Shown here: in pieces, positions 19,042 to 59,258 of the stretch
Numbering within the stretch: position 1 is the first letter of the stretch
Layout of the letters: each line of letters opens with the position of its first letter
Assembly (NCBI GenBank): GCA_017999985.1
Contig: JAGNKU010000001.1
Coordinates: 797,276-861,275 of the forward strand
Length of the DNA: 64,000 nt
Direction of reading: 5' to 3'
Source of the DNA: Phycisphaerae bacterium
GTDB taxonomy: Bacteria; Planctomycetota; Phycisphaerae; UBA1845; Fen-1342
The notes under the pieces: generated by a model
What the model was told of the DNA's origin: nothing
The model's input: only the letters and a program-made list of their open reading frames with translations
Database searches by the model: none
Position numbers and translations under genes: made by a program

Positions 19042-19893
19042 ATGTTCCGGATTCTCGACACGAAGCAACTGGCGTCCGACGTGAAGTGGTTCAAGATCGC
19101 GGCCCCCCTGGTCGCCAAACACCGCCAGCCCGGGCAGTTCGTTATTCTGCGGCTGGACGAGACCGGCGAACGCATCCCGCTCACGATGGCCGACGCCGAC
19201 CCCCGGGCCGGCACCATCGAGCTGATCGTGAAGGCGATCGGCAAGACCACGAAGCTCCTGTTTGCCAAGAACGCCGGTGACACCATCAGCGATGTCATGG
19301 GCCCGCTTGGCCGGCCGACCGAGATCGAAGCCGTCGGCCACGCGGTGCTCGTGGGCGGCGGCGTGGGGACCGCGGTCATCTACCCGCTCGCCAAGGCCCT
19401 GCGCGCCGCAGGCTGCTACGTTAGCTCGATCACGGGCGGGCGCACGAAAGAGCTGGTCGTGCTGGAGGACGAGCTAAAAAAGGTCTCCGATGTCGTCTAT
19501 GCCTGCACGGACGACGGCAGCTACGGCTTCAAGGGCACGGTCGCGGACAAGCTCAAAGAGCTGATGAATGACCAGGCGCGCCCGATCGGCGCCGTCTACG
19601 CCGCCGGCCCGGTGATCATGATGAAAGTGATTTCGGACCTCACGCGCCCGGCGGGGATCAAGACGATCGTGTCGCTGAATCCGATCATGGTGGACGGCAC
19701 GGGCATGTGTGGCGGCTGCCGCGTGACGGTGGGCGGCAAGACGCAGTTCGCCTGTGTCGACGGCCCGGAATTCGACGGCCACGCCGTGGATTACGCGGAG
19801 CTCTCGGACCGCCTGACGGCGTACCGGGCGCAGGAAAAGACCGCGCTGGAGCGGATGGAACACGAATGCAAGCTGGGAGGAGTGACAAAGTAA
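19042..19893 (+). CDS. nfnA: sulfide dehydrogenase/NfnA-type FAD- and NAD-binding subunit
   Basis: 283 residues. An N-terminal ferredoxin-reductase FAD domain (PGQFVILRLDETGERIPLTMAD) is followed by an NAD-binding domain (HAVLVGGGVGTAVIYPLAKAL) and a C-terminal cysteine cluster (GTGMCGGCRVTV ... FACVDGPEF) that binds a [2Fe-2S] centre in NfnA and dihydroorotate dehydrogenase B-type subunits. With the glutamate-synthase-like gene that follows, it fits the NfnAB complex (NADH-dependent reduced ferredoxin:NADP oxidoreductase) or SudBA. Its last codons lie inside an inverted repeat element that fills the gap to the next gene. Confidence 0.88.
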   Translation: MFRILDTKQLASDVKWFKIAAPLVAKHRQPGQFVILRLDETGERIPLTMADADPRAGTIELIVKAIGKTTKLLFAKNAGDTISDVMGPLGRPTEIEAVGHAVLVGGGVGTAVIYPLAKALRAAGCYVSSITGGRTKELVVLEDELKKVSDVVYACTDDGSYGFKGTVADKLKELMNDQARPIGAVYAAGPVIMMKVISDLTRPAGIKTIVSLNPIMVDGTGMCGGCRVTVGGKTQFACVDGPEFDGHAVDYAELSDRLTAYRAQEKTALERMEHECKLGGVTK

Positions 19894-19973
19894 CCCAGGT
19901 AACAAGGTGACAATGTGAGTCTGGACAGCGTCAACACTCCCATGGTTACCTTGTTACTTTGTCACCTTGTCAC
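19882..19973. repeat. inverted array of 8-nt repeats (GTNACAAN)
   Basis: Left half (about 19882-19914): 8-nt units GTGACAAA, GTAACCCA, GTAACAAG, GTGACAAT. Right half (19945-19973): the same kind of unit in reverse complement (CTTGTTAC, TTTGTCAC, CTTGTCAC). The spacer between the halves is about 30 nt. The first units encode the last residues and the stop codon of the nfnA-like gene. The RNA would fold into a long imperfect hairpin between the two cistrons. Confidence 0.85.
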
Positions 19974-34716: not shown

Positions 34717-37700
34717 ATGGCTGGGCGTACGTTGAACCCCCAAAAACGCGCGCGCGTCGCCGACCCGGCGCCGCCGGTCCGCGCTGGCAACGGGACCGTC
34801 CCGTGGCTCACCGTGCGCCGCGCCGCGCATAACAACCTGAAGAACATCGACGTGCGGTTCCCGCTCGGCCGGTTCACGTGCGTCACCGGCGTGTCCGGCT
34901 CGGGCAAGAGTTCACTCGTCAACGACATCCTCTACAAGGCCCTCGCACGCGACCTCAACGGCGCGACCACCCTGGAGCCCGGCCCGCACGCCGGCATCGA
35001 CGGCCGCGAACACCTCGACAAGGTCATCGCAATCGACCAGACGCCGATCGGGCGCACGCCGCGCAGCAACCCGGCCACGTACATCAAGGTCTTCGACGAG
35101 ATCCGCGCCCTGTTCACGAAGCTGCCCGACGCCAAGCTGCGCGGCTACAAGCCCGGGCGGTTCAGTTTCAATGTGCCGAGTCGCCGCGGCGGCGGGCGCT
35201 GCGAGGCCTGCGAGGGCAACGGCTCGAACCGCATGGAGATGGATTTCCTCGCGGACGTGTGGGTGACCTGCCCGGTCTGCGAGGGGCATCGTTTCGCCCA
35301 TGCCACGTTGCAGGTGCTCTACAAGGGCCGCTCCATCGCGGACGTGCTGGAGATGGAAGTGCGGGACGCGCTCGCGCTCTTCGAGAACGTGCCGCGCATC
35401 CGCGCCATGCTCCAGACATTGCACGACGTGGGCCTTGACTACATCCAGCTCGGCCAGCCCAGCACGACGCTCTCGGGCGGCGAGGCGCAGCGCATCAAGC
35501 TGGCGCGCGAGCTGGTGAAGAAAAGCACAGGCCGAACGCTGTACGTGCTGGACGAGCCGACTACTGGCCTGCACTTCGACGACATCCGCAAGCTGCTCGC
35601 CGTCCTGCACGGCTTCGTCGATGCCGGCAACACCGTCGTCGTGATCGAGCACAACCTGGACGTGCTCAAGACCGCCGACTGGCTCATCGACCTCGGCCCC
35701 GAAGGCGGCGAGGGCGGCGGCTACATCGTCGCGGAAGGCACGCCGGAGGAAGTGGCGGCGTGTGCAGAGTCGTTCACCGGCCAGGCTTTGGCGCAAGTAC
35801 TAAGTCAGAAGTCAGAAGTCATAAGTAGTAAGTCAGAAGTATTGAGTCAGAAGCCAGAGGCGGCCGCGGTCGCACGGCGCGTGGGCGCTCCCACTTCTGA
35901 CTTCGTCACGGTGGTCGGCGCGCGTCAACACAACCTGAAGGACCTCACCGTCTCGTTCCCGCGCGACCGCATGACCGTCTGTACCGGCGTTTCCGGCTCC
36001 GGCAAGACCAGCTTCGCCATCGACACCGTCTTCACTGAGGGCTACCGGCGCTATGTCGAGTCGCTGTCGGCGTACGCCCGGCAGTTCCTCGGCCAGCTCG
36101 CCAAACCGCGCGTCGATCACGTCGACGGCCTTTCGCCGGCGATCTGTATCGAGCAGCGCTCGGCCGGCAAGAGCCCGCGCTCGACTGTCGGCACCGTGAC
36201 CGAGATCTATGACTACATGCGCGTGCTCTGGGCGCGGCTCGGCGTGCGCTACTGCCCGCGCTGCCAGGTGCCGATTGGCACGCAGACCGCCGACGAGATC
36301 GTGGACCGCGTGCTGGGCCTGGAGCCCGGAGCGCCGATCGTCATCCTGGCGCCGGTCAGCCTCGGCGATGGTGAGACTTACGGCAGCCTGTTCAACCGGC
36401 TCAAGAACTCGGGCTACATGCGCGTGCGGATCGACGGCGCAATCCGCGCCACCGTCGAGGCGACCACGCTCGACGCGCGCCAGCGGCACCGCGTCGAAGT
36501 TGTGATCGACCGAACAATCGTCCGCGCCAAGGCACGGGCGCGCATCGCCGAGAGCATCGAACACGCGCTTGCGCTCGGCAACGGCGTAATGACTCTGTTG
36601 GTCGAAGCGGTCGAAACCGTCGAGGAAAACCATGCGGCCGATGTCGCAGCGGCCGACCTGCCGGTCGGCCGTCCTGGCACCGGAGCGGCCGAAGCCGGGG
36701 CGCCCGGGCCTGAACCTGTGGCCCCCGCCGCGCCCGCTCTCCACGTCACGCCGGCCCGCGAGTTCATGTATTCACAGAAGCTCGTCTGCACGAAATGCGG
36801 CACCAGCTACGAGGAGCTCGGCCCGAACCACTTCAGCTTCAACAGCCAGCTTGGCTGGTGCGAAACGTGTGAAGGGCTCGGCGTGCAGCGCGGCGCGCCG
36901 GCGGCCGCCATCATCGATCGTCCGCAGCGCAGCCTGTTCGATGGCGCGGTGGCCGGCTGGCGGCGCATCGAACGCCGCACCCCGCTGGGGCGCATGCTGA
37001 CCGCGCTCTGCGCGCATCTGGGCGTCGCGCCCGACATGCCGCTGCGCGACTGGTCGCCGGAGCAGAAGCGCACGCTCATGTTCGGCAGTGGCAACTGGAT
37101 CGACGGCGGCGCCGCGTTCACCGGCGTGCGGTTTCAGTGGCGCGGCTTCTTCCCTGCGATCGACCACGCCACCCGCAACTCGTGGCTCTACCGCTACAAG
37201 CTCCGCAACGTCGTCTCGGACATCCCCTGCGTGACGTGTCGCGGCGGCCGGCTGCGACCGGAGCCGGCCGCCGTGCGGCTGGGGCACGGGCGCGCCCGGA
37301 CCATCGTCGAGGCGTGCGAACTGCCGCTCAGTGAATGTGCGGCCTTCTTCCGGGACCTGCAACTCGATGCGCGCGAACGCAAGATCGCCGGCGAGCTGCT
37401 CAAGGAAATCCGCGACCGCCTCCAGTTCCTGGTCGATGTCGGCCTCGACTACCTCACGCTGCACCGCGCGGCCCCGACGCTCTCCGGCGGCGAAGCCCAG
37501 CGCATCCGCCTCGCCAGCCAGATCGGCAGCGGTCTGTCCGGCGTGCTCTACGTGCTGGACGAGCCGACGATCGGCCTGCACCCGCGCGACACGGCGCGCC
37601 TCATCGCCGCCCTCGCGCGCCTGCGCGACCTCGGCAACACGCTGCTGCTGGTCGAGCATGACCGCGACGTGATCCGCCAGGCGGATGAAGTGCTCGATTT

Positions 37701-39672
37701 CGGCCCGCGGGCCGGCAGCGGCGGCGGACAGATCGTCGCCTCCGGTCCGCCGGCGAAGCTGCTCGCCCAGACAGCAGACACCGGCGATGAGTCACTGACG
37801 CGCGCGTACCTGTCGGGCACCACCGCGATTCCGATTCCGACGAACCGCAGGCCGGTGGATCGTGAGCTGGCGTTGCGACTCGCCGCGCCGGCGCCCGTTC
37901 CTGAGCCGGATGAGACCGAGCCGCGCGTCGTCCTGGACGAAGAAGCGCAGGCCCCCCCGCGCCGGCCGCGCGGCCGCCGCACGAAGTCGGATACGCCAGG
38001 CTGGCTCGTCGTCCGCGGCGCACGGCAGCACAACCTGAAGGACCTCACCGTTCCGATCCCGCTCGGCCGGCTCGTGTGCGTCACCGGCGTGTCCGGCTCC
38101 GGGAAGAGTTCGCTCGTCAACGACATCCTCTGGCCCGCCCTCGCCAACGCCTTGCAGCGCGCGAACCAGACCGTCGGCGAGCATGACGCCATCGACGGCG
38201 TCTCGCAGCTCGACAAGGTCATCAACGTCGATCAATCGCCGATCGGCAGCACACCGTCGAGCAACCCGGCGACCTACACCGGCGCGTTCGACGGCGTCCG
38301 CGAGCTGTTCGCCCGCCTGCCCGACTCAAAGATCCGCGGCTACAACGCCAATCGCTTCAGCTTCAACCGCCCCGGCGGGCGCTGCGAGGCGTGCGAGGGC
38401 TACGGGCAACGCTGCATCGAGATGCACTTCATGCCCGACGTATGGGTCGAATGCGAAACGTGCCAGGGTCGCCGCTACAACCCCGAGACCCTCGCCGTGC
38501 GCTTCAAGGGCAAGAGCATCGCCGACGTGCTTGAAATGCGCGTCGCCGACGCCCTCACGCTGTTCGAGAATGTGCCCAAGGTGCGACGCATGCTGCAGAC
38601 GCTGGCGGACGTCGGCCTTGAGTACGTCCAGCTTGGCCAGCCGGCGCCGACGCTCTCCGGCGGCGAGGCGCAGCGGGTGAAGCTGGCGGCGGAGCTGGGT
38701 AAGCCCGATACCGGCCGGACGTTCTACATTCTGGACGAGCCGACGACGGGCCTGCACTTCGACGACATCCGCAAGCTGCTCGCGGTCATGCACCGCCTCG
38801 TCGACTTGGGCAACACGGTGCTGGTCGTCGAGCACAATCTCGATGTGCTGAAATGCGCCGACTGGATCATCGATCTCGGCCCCGAGGCGGGCGATGCCGG
38901 CGGACACATCGTGGCGATCGGTACACCTGAAGAAATAAGTCATAAGTCAGAAGTCAGAAGTCATAAGTCAGAGGTGCGCGCAGTGCCGCGCGATGCGCAT
39001 GCACCAACCACTCATGACTTATTACTCAATGCTTCTGGCTTCGTGTCCCATACCGCCGTCGCGCTCGCACCGGTCCTCGCCGCCGGCCCGTATGCCGCGC
39101 GGACGCCCTACGATCCCGCCGCGCATGCGGCGCGCGAGTTGGCGGTGGAGAAGGCCGGCTTTGGCGACGTCGGTCGCGACGTGAAGATGCCATGGCAGGT
39201 CGATGGGCGCAAGTGGCACCTGGAGCAGCGCAGCAGCCGCGACGAATCGCCGCGCCGCTGGGAGCCGGAGGCGCTGGAGTATGTGCTGGAGCTGGTGCAC
39301 AAGGCCGGCGACTTCGCGGCCACCAACTGGAACAATCGCGCGAGTGTCGAGGTCACCGCGCCCGACGCGGAGAACTGGTTCCTGCATGCGCTCACCGGCG
39401 GCGAATGGCTGCTGGAGCTGTGCTTCATGGTGCCGCCGGGCACGTTCAAGTGGCGCGCGCTCGACGAGCAGCTCGGGCTGAAGACGCTCGACGAGCGTGA
39501 CGACCTGGAAACCTACGGCGACTGGGCCCGCGTGGACGTGCGCCCCCGCGCCGTCGGCCTGGAAGCGGTCATGATCTTCGTGCACGACCGGGCCGAAATC
39601 GACACGCCGGCGTTCCGGCGCTTCATCAAGCAGGCCGTGAAAGCGTATCGAACGACGCTGCGGACTACGTAA
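34717..39672 (+). CDS. uvrA: excinuclease ABC subunit A with three ABC modules and an extra C-terminal domain
   Basis: 1651 residues from the ATG at 34717 (34705 and 34663 are alternative in-frame ATGs). Normal UvrA is about 940 residues with two ABC modules. Here residues about 25-360 form a complete C-terminal-half module (Walker A GVSGSGKSSLVND, zinc site CEACEGNG...CPVCEG, LSGGEAQRIKLA, LDEPTTGLH). Residues about 395-1060 form the N-terminal half (GVSGSGKTSFAID, YVESLSAYARQFLGQ, CTKCG...CETCEG, LSGGEAQRIRLA). Residues about 1095-1400 form a second C-terminal half. Each module keeps its ATPase motifs. In-frame 7-nt repeat arrays form the linkers at about 360-395 and 1407-1441. The last 210 residues are a separate domain I do not recognise. 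Chlamydial UvrA is also oversized, so enlargement fits the PVC group. It acts in damage recognition with UvrB. Confidence 0.93.
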   Translation: MAGRTLNPQKRARVADPAPPVRAGNGTVPWLTVRRAAHNNLKNIDVRFPLGRFTCVTGVSGSGKSSLVNDILYKALARDLNGATTLEPGPHAGIDGREHLDKVIAIDQTPIGRTPRSNPATYIKVFDEIRALFTKLPDAKLRGYKPGRFSFNVPSRRGGGRCEACEGNGSNRMEMDFLADVWVTCPVCEGHRFAHATLQVLYKGRSIADVLEMEVRDALALFENVPRIRAMLQTLHDVGLDYIQLGQPSTTLSGGEAQRIKLARELVKKSTGRTLYVLDEPTTGLHFDDIRKLLAVLHGFVDAGNTVVVIEHNLDVLKTADWLIDLGPEGGEGGGYIVAEGTPEEVAACAESFTGQALAQVLSQKSEVISSKSEVLSQKPEAAAVARRVGAPTSDFVTVVGARQHNLKDLTVSFPRDRMTVCTGVSGSGKTSFAIDTVFTEGYRRYVESLSAYARQFLGQLAKPRVDHVDGLSPAICIEQRSAGKSPRSTVGTVTEIYDYMRVLWARLGVRYCPRCQVPIGTQTADEIVDRVLGLEPGAPIVILAPVSLGDGETYGSLFNRLKNSGYMRVRIDGAIRATVEATTLDARQRHRVEVVIDRTIVRAKARARIAESIEHALALGNGVMTLLVEAVETVEENHAADVAAADLPVGRPGTGAAEAGAPGPEPVAPAAPALHVTPAREFMYSQKLVCTKCGTSYEELGPNHFSFNSQLGWCETCEGLGVQRGAPAAAIIDRPQRSLFDGAVAGWRRIERRTPLGRMLTALCAHLGVAPDMPLRDWSPEQKRTLMFGSGNWIDGGAAFTGVRFQWRGFFPAIDHATRNSWLYRYKLRNVVSDIPCVTCRGGRLRPEPAAVRLGHGRARTIVEACELPLSECAAFFRDLQLDARERKIAGELLKEIRDRLQFLVDVGLDYLTLHRAAPTLSGGEAQRIRLASQIGSGLSGVLYVLDEPTIGLHPRDTARLIAALARLRDLGNTLLLVEHDRDVIRQADEVLDFGPRAGSGGGQIVASGPPAKLLAQTADTGDESLTRAYLSGTTAIPIPTNRRPVDRELALRLAAPAPVPEPDETEPRVVLDEEAQAPPRRPRGRRTKSDTPGWLVVRGARQHNLKDLTVPIPLGRLVCVTGVSGSGKSSLVNDILWPALANALQRANQTVGEHDAIDGVSQLDKVINVDQSPIGSTPSSNPATYTGAFDGVRELFARLPDSKIRGYNANRFSFNRPGGRCEACEGYGQRCIEMHFMPDVWVECETCQGRRYNPETLAVRFKGKSIADVLEMRVADALTLFENVPKVRRMLQTLADVGLEYVQLGQPAPTLSGGEAQRVKLAAELGKPDTGRTFYILDEPTTGLHFDDIRKLLAVMHRLVDLGNTVLVVEHNLDVLKCADWIIDLGPEAGDAGGHIVAIGTPEEISHKSEVRSHKSEVRAVPRDAHAPTTHDLLLNASGFVSHTAVALAPVLAAGPYAARTPYDPAAHAARELAVEKAGFGDVGRDVKMPWQVDGRKWHLEQRSSRDESPRRWEPEALEYVLELVHKAGDFAATNWNNRASVEVTAPDAENWFLHALTGGEWLLELCFMVPPGTFKWRALDEQLGLKTLDERDDLETYGDWARVDVRPRAVGLEAVMIFVHDRAEIDTPAFRRFIKQAVKAYRTTLRTT
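35795..35903. repeat. in-frame inverted 7-nt repeat array in uvrA, copy 1
   Basis: Nine consecutive 7-nt units (consensus AAGTCAG, variants AAGTCAT, AAGTAGT, AAGTATT, AAGCCAG) run from 35795 to 35857. After about 35 nt, ACTTCTGACTT (35893-35903) is the exact reverse complement of AAGTCAGAAGT. Because 7 x 3 = 21, translation gives a 7-residue period (KSEVISS KSEVLSQ), and no stop codon arises in this frame. It fills the linker between ABC modules 1 and 2. Confidence 0.9.
38937..39041. repeat. in-frame inverted 7-nt repeat array in uvrA, copy 2
   Basis: Five direct units (AAGTCAT, AAGTCAG...) at 38937-38971 and five inverted units at 39007-39041 (ATGACTT, ATTACTC, AATGCTT, CTGGCTT) flank a GC-rich spacer of about 35 nt. 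It follows the GTPEE end of ABC module 3, the same relative place as copy 1 after module 1. It translates as HKSEVRSHKSEV and further on THDLLLNASGF. Confidence 0.9.
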
Positions 39673-57136: not shown

Positions 57137-58966
57137 CTATGCATCGTCGGCGGGCGGCGGCGCGGCGGGCGCGGGCTGGTCCTTGACCAGGCTGATGAGC
57201 GTCTGGCCGGCAACGGGCAGGAGCGGCTGTCCGGCGGTGATGACGCTCAGCCGTCCGCTCTCGGTAATGACGAACATGGGCACGGCCGTCGGCCCGTAGC
57301 GGGAGGTGAAAGCGGCGTAATCGAACGACTCCGACAGTCGCGTGGCCTTGATCGTGTGGCCCTCGCCGAAGCGGCGCGCGAGCTCGGAGTACGTGACGCC
57401 TTCGCCAAACAGCCAGCGCCCGTGCAGGTGCTTGTAGGTCGCCGGCTTGTCTTGCGGATCGGCCCGCGGCGGAAGCTGGTAGCAGTGTGCGCTGCCCAGG
57501 ATGCGGGTGAAGCGCTGCACGGCCAGGGCGTTGACCCAGTCGTTGGGCGTGACGGCTAGCAACCGGCCGATGCCGCCGAGGTTGATCTCGTCGATCGCGT
57601 AGTCCGCCAGGATGCTGCCGGAGTACGTTGGCAGACCTTCCATGCGCGCGGCGGCGGCGTGATAGCGGTTGTTGTCGACCAGCAGCACCGGGAAGCCCTT
57701 GTCGCGCAGCACGACGGCCAGCGCGCGCGTCCACGCCGGCGCGCCGACCAGGATCACGCCCTGCGGGTTAGGCACGGCTACGCCGAGCCGGCGCGCGACG
57801 AGCGGCGCGGTCAGGCCATAGATACCCACGGTGCCGATGATCACGAGGAACACGATCGGCACCAGCAGGTGGGCGCCGCTGTGGCCGGCATCTTCCAGGC
57901 GCAACGCGAACAGCGAGGAGACGGCGGCCGCGACGATGCCGCGCGGCGCCATCCACGCCAGGAAATGCCGCTCGCGCTGTGCCAGGCCGGAGCGCACCGT
58001 CGCGACCCAGACGGCGAGCGGACGGCCGATGAAAATCAGCAGGGCCACGAACACGGCCCCGCCCACGCCCACTTGTTTCAGGTTGGCCGGGTCCAGCCGC
58101 GCTGCCAGGAGGATAAACAGGGCCGAGATGAGCAGGACGCGCAGGTTCTCCTTGAACTCGACGATGTGGCGCACGTCCGCGAGCTTCTGGTTGGCCAGTA
58201 CGAAGCCCATCACGGTGACCGTCAGCAGCCCGGACTCGTCCTGCAGGGCGTTCGCGCCCGCGAAGGCCGCGATCACGAACATGAGCGAGACGGAGTTCTG
58301 GAGGAAGTCCGGAATCCAGTAGCGCTGCAGCAGCAGCGCCAGCAGGTACGCCGCCGCCACCCCCAAGCCGCCCCCGATCATGATTGTCCTGAGCAGGCTG
58401 AGCGCGACGTGCGCGGCCGCGACGTCGGGGCTGCGTCCGCTGGCGATGACCTCGAACACGAGCACCGCGAGAGTAGCGCCGAGCGGGTCGACGGCGATGC
58501 CTTCCCACTTCAGGATCGGGCCGACCGGCCCCGTCGGGCGAATGTGGTGCAACAGGGGACCGATGACCGTGGGGCCGGTCACCACCAGGATCGCCCCCAG
58601 CAGCGCCGCGACGCCCAGGCTGAGTTCGTCGAAGATCAGGTACGCCGCCGCCGTGCTCACGGCCCACGTCAGCAGCGCTCCGATCGAGCACAGATACGTG
58701 ACCACGCGGCCGGCCCCGCGCAGCTCGGCGAGCTTGAGGGTCAGGCCGCCTTCGTACAGGATCAGCGCGACCGCGAGCGAGACAAACGGAAACAGCACCT
58801 CGTCGAACTGGGGATTGAACTGCAGCAGCCCGGTCACCGGGCCGGCAATGAAGCCGAACGTCAGCAGGAGCAGGATCGACGGCAGCCCGATGCGCGCAGC
58901 CAGCCACTGGGCGCCAACGCCGAGGACAACGACGCACGCCACCTGAAACAAGGCCTGCTCAGGCAC
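57137..58966 (-). CDS. CPA-family cation/proton antiporter with TrkA-N domain
   Basis: 609 residues from a GTG at 58966 with GGAGA 6 nt upstream (the ORF runs to 58999 without a site). About twelve membrane segments occupy residues 1-390 (ILLLLTFGFIAGPVTG, VLFPFVSLAVALILYEGGLTLK, GAILVVTGPTVIGPLL, the MAPRGIVAAAVSSLFAL segment). Residues about 400-530 contain a Rossmann-like TrkA-N segment (GVILVGAPAWTRALAVVL). A TrkA-C-like C-terminal domain follows. Proteins of this layout exchange Na+ or K+ for protons, controlled by nucleotides. The nearest described family is the NhaP/CPA1 or KefB-like CPA2 type. Confidence 0.9.
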   Translation of the reverse strand: MPEQALFQVACVVVLGVGAQWLAARIGLPSILLLLTFGFIAGPVTGLLQFNPQFDEVLFPFVSLAVALILYEGGLTLKLAELRGAGRVVTYLCSIGALLTWAVSTAAAYLIFDELSLGVAALLGAILVVTGPTVIGPLLHHIRPTGPVGPILKWEGIAVDPLGATLAVLVFEVIASGRSPDVAAAHVALSLLRTIMIGGGLGVAAAYLLALLLQRYWIPDFLQNSVSLMFVIAAFAGANALQDESGLLTVTVMGFVLANQKLADVRHIVEFKENLRVLLISALFILLAARLDPANLKQVGVGGAVFVALLIFIGRPLAVWVATVRSGLAQRERHFLAWMAPRGIVAAAVSSLFALRLEDAGHSGAHLLVPIVFLVIIGTVGIYGLTAPLVARRLGVAVPNPQGVILVGAPAWTRALAVVLRDKGFPVLLVDNNRYHAAAARMEGLPTYSGSILADYAIDEINLGGIGRLLAVTPNDWVNALAVQRFTRILGSAHCYQLPPRADPQDKPATYKHLHGRWLFGEGVTYSELARRFGEGHTIKATRLSESFDYAAFTSRYGPTAVPMFVITESGRLSVITAGQPLLPVAGQTLISLVKDQPAPAAPPPADDA

Positions 58967-59063
58967 ACCCGGTCTCCAGTCGTGACAGCAAGGTCGCACC
59001 GCGCGCGACCCGGCCCGGGGTCGGCATTCTAGTGCGCGGCCTCATTCAAGGTAACTCATGACG

Positions 59064-59172
59064 GGGGTGGTACGCGCAACAGGGGCGGTACAGGCAACAG
59101 CGGTGGTACGGGCACCGGGCGTGCTACGGGCGTCCCGCCCGTCGTCGGCACGGACAAGATGCCCGTACCACC
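59064..59172. repeat. GGTACGGGCA-type tandem and inverted repeat array
   Basis: Roughly 17-nt units containing GGTGGTACGGGCA or variants (GGTACGCGCAACAG, GGTACAGGCAACAG, GCTACGGGCGTC) occur four times from 59066 to 59134. A facing inverted copy lies at 59160-59172 (TGCCCGTACCACC), an exact 13-nt complement of 59102-59114. It fills most of the gap between the antiporter and rhaI genes. Same plan as the arrays at 19882-19973 and in uvrA. Confidence 0.8.
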
Positions 59173-59195
59173 CGGTTGCGCGCGGTCGGCGGAGT

Positions 59196-59225
59196 TTGGG
59201 TGCGGTGAGCGACTCCGGGTAACAT
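59196..59225 (+). promoter_or_regulatory. possible promoter of the rhamnose genes
   Basis: TTGGGT (59196-59201) and TAACAT (59220-59225) with an 18-nt spacer lie 33 nt before the rhaI ATG. Confidence 0.35.
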
Positions 59226-59258
59226 GGCGGGCTGCGGATTCGCTGTCTGGAGACCACG

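Follow-up and report, generated by a model that had tools for sequence, protein, structure and literature searches.

RAYT transposases (Y1, HUH) are thought to recognise a REP, folded as single-stranded DNA, by its GT(A/G)G head and its stem-loop, to cut beside it and to rejoin it elsewhere. A REPIN is a mobile but non-autonomous element made of two REP palindromes in inverted orientation. The closest described systems are the REPINs and REP singlets of Pseudomonas fluorescens SBW25, in which hairpin-forming, RAYT-linked REPs are dispersed as inverted doublets of fixed spacing, and in which tandem REP arrays also occur (PMC3116915). The GT(A/G)G head of REP elements was described in the definition of RAYTs (PMC2817692), and GTAG-tagged families with a short GC stem and REPtrons have been reported, including from Planctomycetes and Opitutus (PMC3733652, PMC2817692); short REPs lying in frame have already been described from genes for DNA repair and for tRNA synthetases (PMC3733652). 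For TnpA_REP of E. coli, Stenotrophomonas and Marinomonas, head and hairpin were found to be recognised on the single strand, GTGG moving the cleavage site in one system (PMC8266576).

The locus described here resembles the SBW25 doublets in spacing, hairpins, dispersal and RAYT linkage, and differs from them in its GTGG head, its ACGGGC-RTCYY-GCCCGT stem-loop and, in the copy present in the window (the whole stretch of DNA that was analysed, 64 kb long), its 18-nt half-REP head units. It has head, short GC stem and REPtrons in common with the GTAG-tagged families; unlike what the accessible text on those families describes (PMC3733652, PMC2817692), whole RAYT genes here lie in frame in housekeeping genes. 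In sequence, its head and hairpin architecture is like that of the TnpA_REP systems (PMC8266576). As with the palindromic elements of Rickettsia, repeats are tolerated in frame in genes likely encoding functional proteins, but the Rickettsia elements (cited in PMC3733652) carry a CGTC tag and have no associated transposase.

Structure of the array

The array lies in an intergenic stretch (59000-59258, 259 nt) between a Na+/H+ (potassium/proton) antiporter gene on the minus strand (57137-58999) and genes for L-rhamnose isomerase and rhamnulokinase on the plus strand (from 59259), thus between two divergent genes, where the preliminary description had placed it. TRF run on the 64-kb window gave 59064-59131 as its top-scoring row (period 18, 3.8 copies, 78% matches, score 80), with units starting at 59066, 59084, 59102 and 59120; the fourfold repetition described earlier is real, and its period is 18 nt, not about 17 nt. 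At a lag of 18, 41 of 54 positions matched within the intergenic stretch, a periodicity attained at any lag from 12 to 30 by none of 1000 dinucleotide shuffles. The perfect 13-nt inverted copy was also found as described, GGTGGTACGGGCA at 59102-59114 being complementary to 59160-59172; taken alone it is weaker evidence, being equalled by 14 of 300 shuffles, but this very inverted pair was met again at dozens of places in the genome. Motif scoring within the window alone was discarded, since 13-mers at up to three mismatches (34, with 26 expected) were near chance and genome-wide data were needed. The following features were assigned by alignment with other copies and by a covariance model.

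59030..59063, plus strand: left flank common to other REPIN copies, TAGTGCGCGGCCTCATTCAAGGTAACTCATGACG (alignment with other copies)
59066..59119, plus strand: tandem run of three additional 18-nt units, each composed of a REP head (GTGGTAC or a variant) and a spacer, e.g. GCGCAACAGG
59121..59142, plus strand: left REP, GTGC-T-ACGGGC-GTCCC-GCCCGT (alignment A2, covariance-model match)
59150..59171, minus strand: right inverted REP, read on the minus strand as GTGG-T-ACGGGC-ATCTT-GTCCGT
59118..59174, plus strand: whole 57-nt REPIN core, an inverted REP pair with a 7-nt spacer (covariance model)

The array at 59064-59172 forms the edge of a 57-nt REPIN that is dispersed through the genome, a point missed in the preliminary description. 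Its core (59121-59171) consists of two inverted REPs, in family form GTGG-T-ACGGGC-GTCCC-GCCCGT and ACGGGC-AAGAT-GCCCGTACCAC, and was matched by the covariance model at C1:856393-856449 (71.1 bits, E 1.2e-13). In the window copy the left head is mutated from GTGG to GTGC and a single stem position of the right REP is altered (stem CGGAC). GTGYGCCGCCTCATTGAAAGTAACTC, at up to three mismatches, matched only the window site and C18:35628.

Dispersed copies and tandem heads

The consensus REP of the window's genome was GTGG-T-ACGGGC-GTCCC-GCCCGT, with the GT(A/G)G head of REP elements, and the aligned doublet was GG-GTGGTACGGGC-GTCCC-GCCCGT-N7-ACGGGC-AAGAT-GCCCGTACCAC-CC (57 nt including flanking bases), a nearly fixed spacing found in most copies. 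In the 5.23-Mb genome GGTGGTACGGGCA occurred 70 times at up to one mismatch, compared with 16 for the reversed control, and the REP query GTGGTACGGGCRTCYYGCCCGT occurred 86 times at up to two mismatches, compared with 0 for the reversed pattern. The covariance model, built from 22 copies, gave 88 matches over both strands, counted as about 46 distinct places, so that the family is high-copy and dispersed. No covariation was detected among the copies in this genome; they decay without compensatory change, which fits mobile copies and not a selected structure, and the lack of covariation was taken as a sign of decay that does not count against the palindrome. With the window array, itself intergenic, the Phycisphaerae gain a new member of the REPIN family, unusual in its arrays of half-REP heads.

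An 18-nt unit comprises a REP head and its spacer but lacks the 3' half of the hairpin. Besides the three extra heads of the window copy, further ones were found as follows.

C6:155665: two extra heads, 18 nt
C6:38995: two extra heads, 21 nt
C2:225955: two extra heads, 23 nt
C18:50056: one extra head, 18 nt

Such arrays stood at 8 of 60 REP ends in the window's genome, against 4 of 660 control windows; none was seen among the best 24 REPINs examined from the related genomes G015 and G019, and two further heads with the spacer CGACCATTYCG lay upstream of the ileS-RAYT of G019. The spacer is common to the units of one array and differs from array to array, a pattern better explained by duplication on the spot than by the transposition of units already made.

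About half of 30 copies were embedded, as judged by eye, in a longer element, TAGTGYGCCGCCTCATTGAAAGTAACTCATCACA ... TGTTGGAATAATTCTGAGGCRCTA, whose ends are imperfect inverted repeats with TA termini. In the window copy 59030..59063 is the left half of this element, and the right half, with its end, is unrecognisable. The REPINs of G015 carry different outer arms of their own, GAGCCTGTGAAC / GTTCACAGGCTC. No autonomous element, and no second place bearing the outer inverted repeats without a REPIN, was found at up to three mismatches.

Cognate RAYTs

RAYTs flanked by inverted copies of the window's REP were found in three genomes of the same family (G015, G017 and G019). The flanking REP was GTGGGACGGGC (GTGGGAC) in G015, where almost all REPINs examined were the same variant, and GTGGTACGGGC (GTGGTAC) in G017 and G019, with which most genome-wide copies listed or examined there agreed. 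REP counts, which depend on draft assemblies, were 471, 53 and 188 in G015, G017 and G019, respectively. Only three to four copies were present in G010, G011 and G016, in which another REP flanks the ileS-RAYT; G007 and G030 carried 31 and 120 copies, yet no RAYT close to that of G015. The pairing of RAYT and REP is thus strong, not exclusive. Across 80 named loci (320 kb), 18 REPs were matched at up to three mismatches, compared with 0 for the reversed pattern. A planctomycete valS-RAYT (L149) was flanked by REPs with unlike loops, GTCTC in one and ATCTT in the other, and in this asymmetry resembled the window core. At a verrucomicrobial RAYT (L223) an identical stem was combined with a GTAG head. 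H73, H75, Y143, N147 and P148 were invariant in the RAYT alignment (A1), the HUH motif, the catalytic Tyr and YxxxNP all being present; against NCBIfam REP_Tyr_transpos (cut-off 80) the RAYT of G019 scored above (84.1 bits) and those of G015 and G017 below (72.5 and 71.2 bits).

The window's genome (98.65% complete, 31 contigs) contained seven PF01797 genes and one RAYT in purH, none of which was flanked by the window's REP. The seven were rejected as cognates, at least five of them having other palindromes, and most RAYTs of this genome were flanked by palindromes of other kinds, several of them GTAG- or GTGG-headed. Among 91 Y1 loci of this genome and its relatives, some of them overlapping, no further locus was flanked by the window's REP, apart from a Y1 gene in G049 with a single REP at a distance of about 670 nt. 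Since no cognate was found in the window's genome, the family there may be an orphan or may depend on a RAYT acting in trans; loss of REPtrons with REPs remaining has been reported in other genomes (PMC3733652). The REP-associated tyrosine transposase that the preliminary description proposed to look for was thus encountered with this REP in three relatives and not in the genome itself. For this array the suggested RAYT-like mobiliser is upheld by the GT(A/G)G head, the dispersed inverted pairs and the same REP flanking RAYTs in relatives, and judged from these sequences the mobiliser of the family is very probably a RAYT (Y1/HUH transposase).

Three Y1 transposase matches at G015:C1:2614693, 2616271 and 2617849, spaced by 1578 nt, form an apparent tandem duplication of a RAYT-containing unit.

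Origin of the array

We consider it quite likely that the core is a REPIN mobilised by a RAYT, and that the window copy landed between genes, had its head duplicated locally and has since decayed. The single-stranded substrate of a cognate RAYT (e.g. the domain in the ileS of G019) would be GTGGTACGGGCGTCCCGCCCGT. The copy would have been inserted in the divergent antiporter/rhamnose region, probably within the longer element with inverted-repeat ends, and its head region may then have been duplicated, 18 nt at a time, through replication slippage or through aberrant cutting and joining at repeated heads; both the mobilisation and this origin of the tandem units are inferred. The GTGC head and the altered stem position would be later decay. 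In Stenotrophomonas a change of the fourth head base abolished cleavage by TnpA_REP (PMC8266576), which suggests that the window copy is probably immobile now. In the relatives, translation of the cassette embedded in ileS, if it occurs, would yield a mobiliser built into IleRS.

The outer arms, inverted ends and TA termini common to about half of the copies, together with the separate arms of the G015 REPINs, would also suit MITEs of a DDE transposase (IS630/Tc1-like) recognising the outer repeats TAGTGYGCCGCCTCA...TGAGGCRCTA, with the REPIN merely at the centre. This origin is unlikely, as the remaining half of the copies are armless, the arms vary between genera while the REP is constant, the REP flanks RAYTs, and these ends occur at no REPIN-free second place at up to three mismatches; composites of REPs and unrelated stem-loops are, moreover, already known in Pseudomonas (PMC3733652). 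Replication slippage with template switching, which the preliminary description had put forward as a common mechanism, is likely for the 18-nt units only, whose spacers are shared within and differ between arrays. That these events alone produced both the array and its inverted mate is very improbable, because local events cannot yield an identically spaced inverted pair at about 46 places and in other genera; for the core this dispersal already refutes it. Equally little credence can be given to selection for a hairpin that would serve as regulator or terminator between the antiporter and rhamnose genes: the 119-nt stretch does fold better than shuffles (z -2.9), but the core alone barely does so (z -1.1), the copies lack covariation, and the position is between two divergent 5' ends and not after a gene.

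Cassettes in housekeeping genes

The three cognate cassettes (G015, G017 and G019) lay inside ileS, REPs and RAYT being read through in the IleRS frame without stops. In G019 a run of N stands at the downstream junction and the continuation is in another frame, so that the upstream junction alone supports reading-through there. Pfam and NCBIfam showed a single IleRS into which a REP tyrosine transposase is inserted. Across six genera RAYT-REP cassettes occupied two sites of ileS, site A (L131, L133, L134 and L135) and site B (L132 and L136); the site-A copy of G011 fell among site-B copies in the RAYT tree, which suggests movement or recombination between the sites. The REPIN consensus is free of stop codons in all six frames, which helps to account for its tolerance in frame.

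Similar cassettes interrupted purH in the window's genome, G012, G015 and G019. The RAYT of the first of these has VMRDHVHA as its HUH region and NV at the NP motif, and with these altered motifs it may be decaying. This RAYT and the cassettes in other genes are given below.

G000:C15:59683-60114: purH RAYT of the window's genome (L128), in frame in an 859-codon open frame, flanking REPs of another kind, GTAGCAAAGCGGAGCTTTGCT
gcvPB: L144/L145
rarA: L138
thrS: L178
alaS: L194/L206
recG: L162/L195
valS: L148/L149
rdgB: L154
carB: L210
xseA: L201
SNF2 helicase gene: L223

In most cases other than ileS and purH, Pfam domains of the host were found on both sides of the insert, or one domain spanned it. 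Embedded cassettes were found in Planctomycetota and Verrucomicrobiota and made up roughly 37 of the 80 best named loci, a fraction biased upward because the query was seeded with embedded RAYTs. Third codon positions differed most in all eight pairwise comparisons, as expected under purifying selection, the excess being least clear in the most diverged pair (purH of the window's genome and of G012). In a tree of 91 RAYTs the embedded ones grouped largely by host gene, host labels having been assigned partly by eye from conserved motifs, and switches between the embedded and the free state occurred, with good support, at least five times.

There is an even chance, on our reading of these sequences, that essential enzymes of Planctomycetota and Verrucomicrobiota (IleRS, PurH, GcvPB, AlaRS, ThrRS, ValRS, RecG, CarB and others) have long harboured RAYT-REP cassettes in frame, and that the transposase, made as a domain within its host enzyme, mobilises REPINs like that of the window; translation, tolerance and activity of such RAYT-enzyme fusions would follow from the open frames and retained motifs only by inference. 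No account of whole RAYT genes in frame inside housekeeping genes was found in the accessible text of the open-access literature. If this is true, internal translation would keep the transposase expressed and hard to lose. The presence inside housekeeping enzymes of RAYTs with intact catalytic residues, open frames and fastest change at third codon positions bears on why bacteria long retain apparently domesticated RAYTs. For annotators, peptides like GGTGVPPV, GRDARTT and VPQPPSAA in planctomycete proteins are to be read as translated REPs.

The ileS of the window's genome (G000:C14, L227) was considered as a missed cognate home and rejected; it is without a RAYT and has at site A a short in-frame insert, PEKGSRDPGIKGSSEGRPPPHLDPSIPGSLDPSQ, which resembles another palindromic repeat. 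Tandem REP arrays in frame were seen in the ileS of G011 (L135, 14 PGSIGVPPV-type repeats) and the purH of G012 (L137, nine DHRRDACAT-type repeats). GGAACAG heptamer arrays, encoding GNREQGT peptides, also lay in frame in ileS and purH (L131, L135, L139 and L227, the last being the ileS just mentioned).

Other arrays in the window

The preliminary description had joined the present array in one class with a 7-nt (AAGTCAG) and an 8-nt (GGTGACA) type; this grouping is not sustained, those arrays having neither a GT(A/G)G head nor a GC-rich stem-loop. The 8-nt array (19892-19973, GGTGACA/GTAACAAG) has a long inverted mate and no REP head. The AAGTCAG arrays (35795-35858 and 38935-38970) have inverted mates, likewise without a REP head, and look like a separate dispersed class. 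An AAGTCAG heptamer array was also found in frame, encoding KSEVRSQKSEV, in the gcvPB of G015 (L120/L144).
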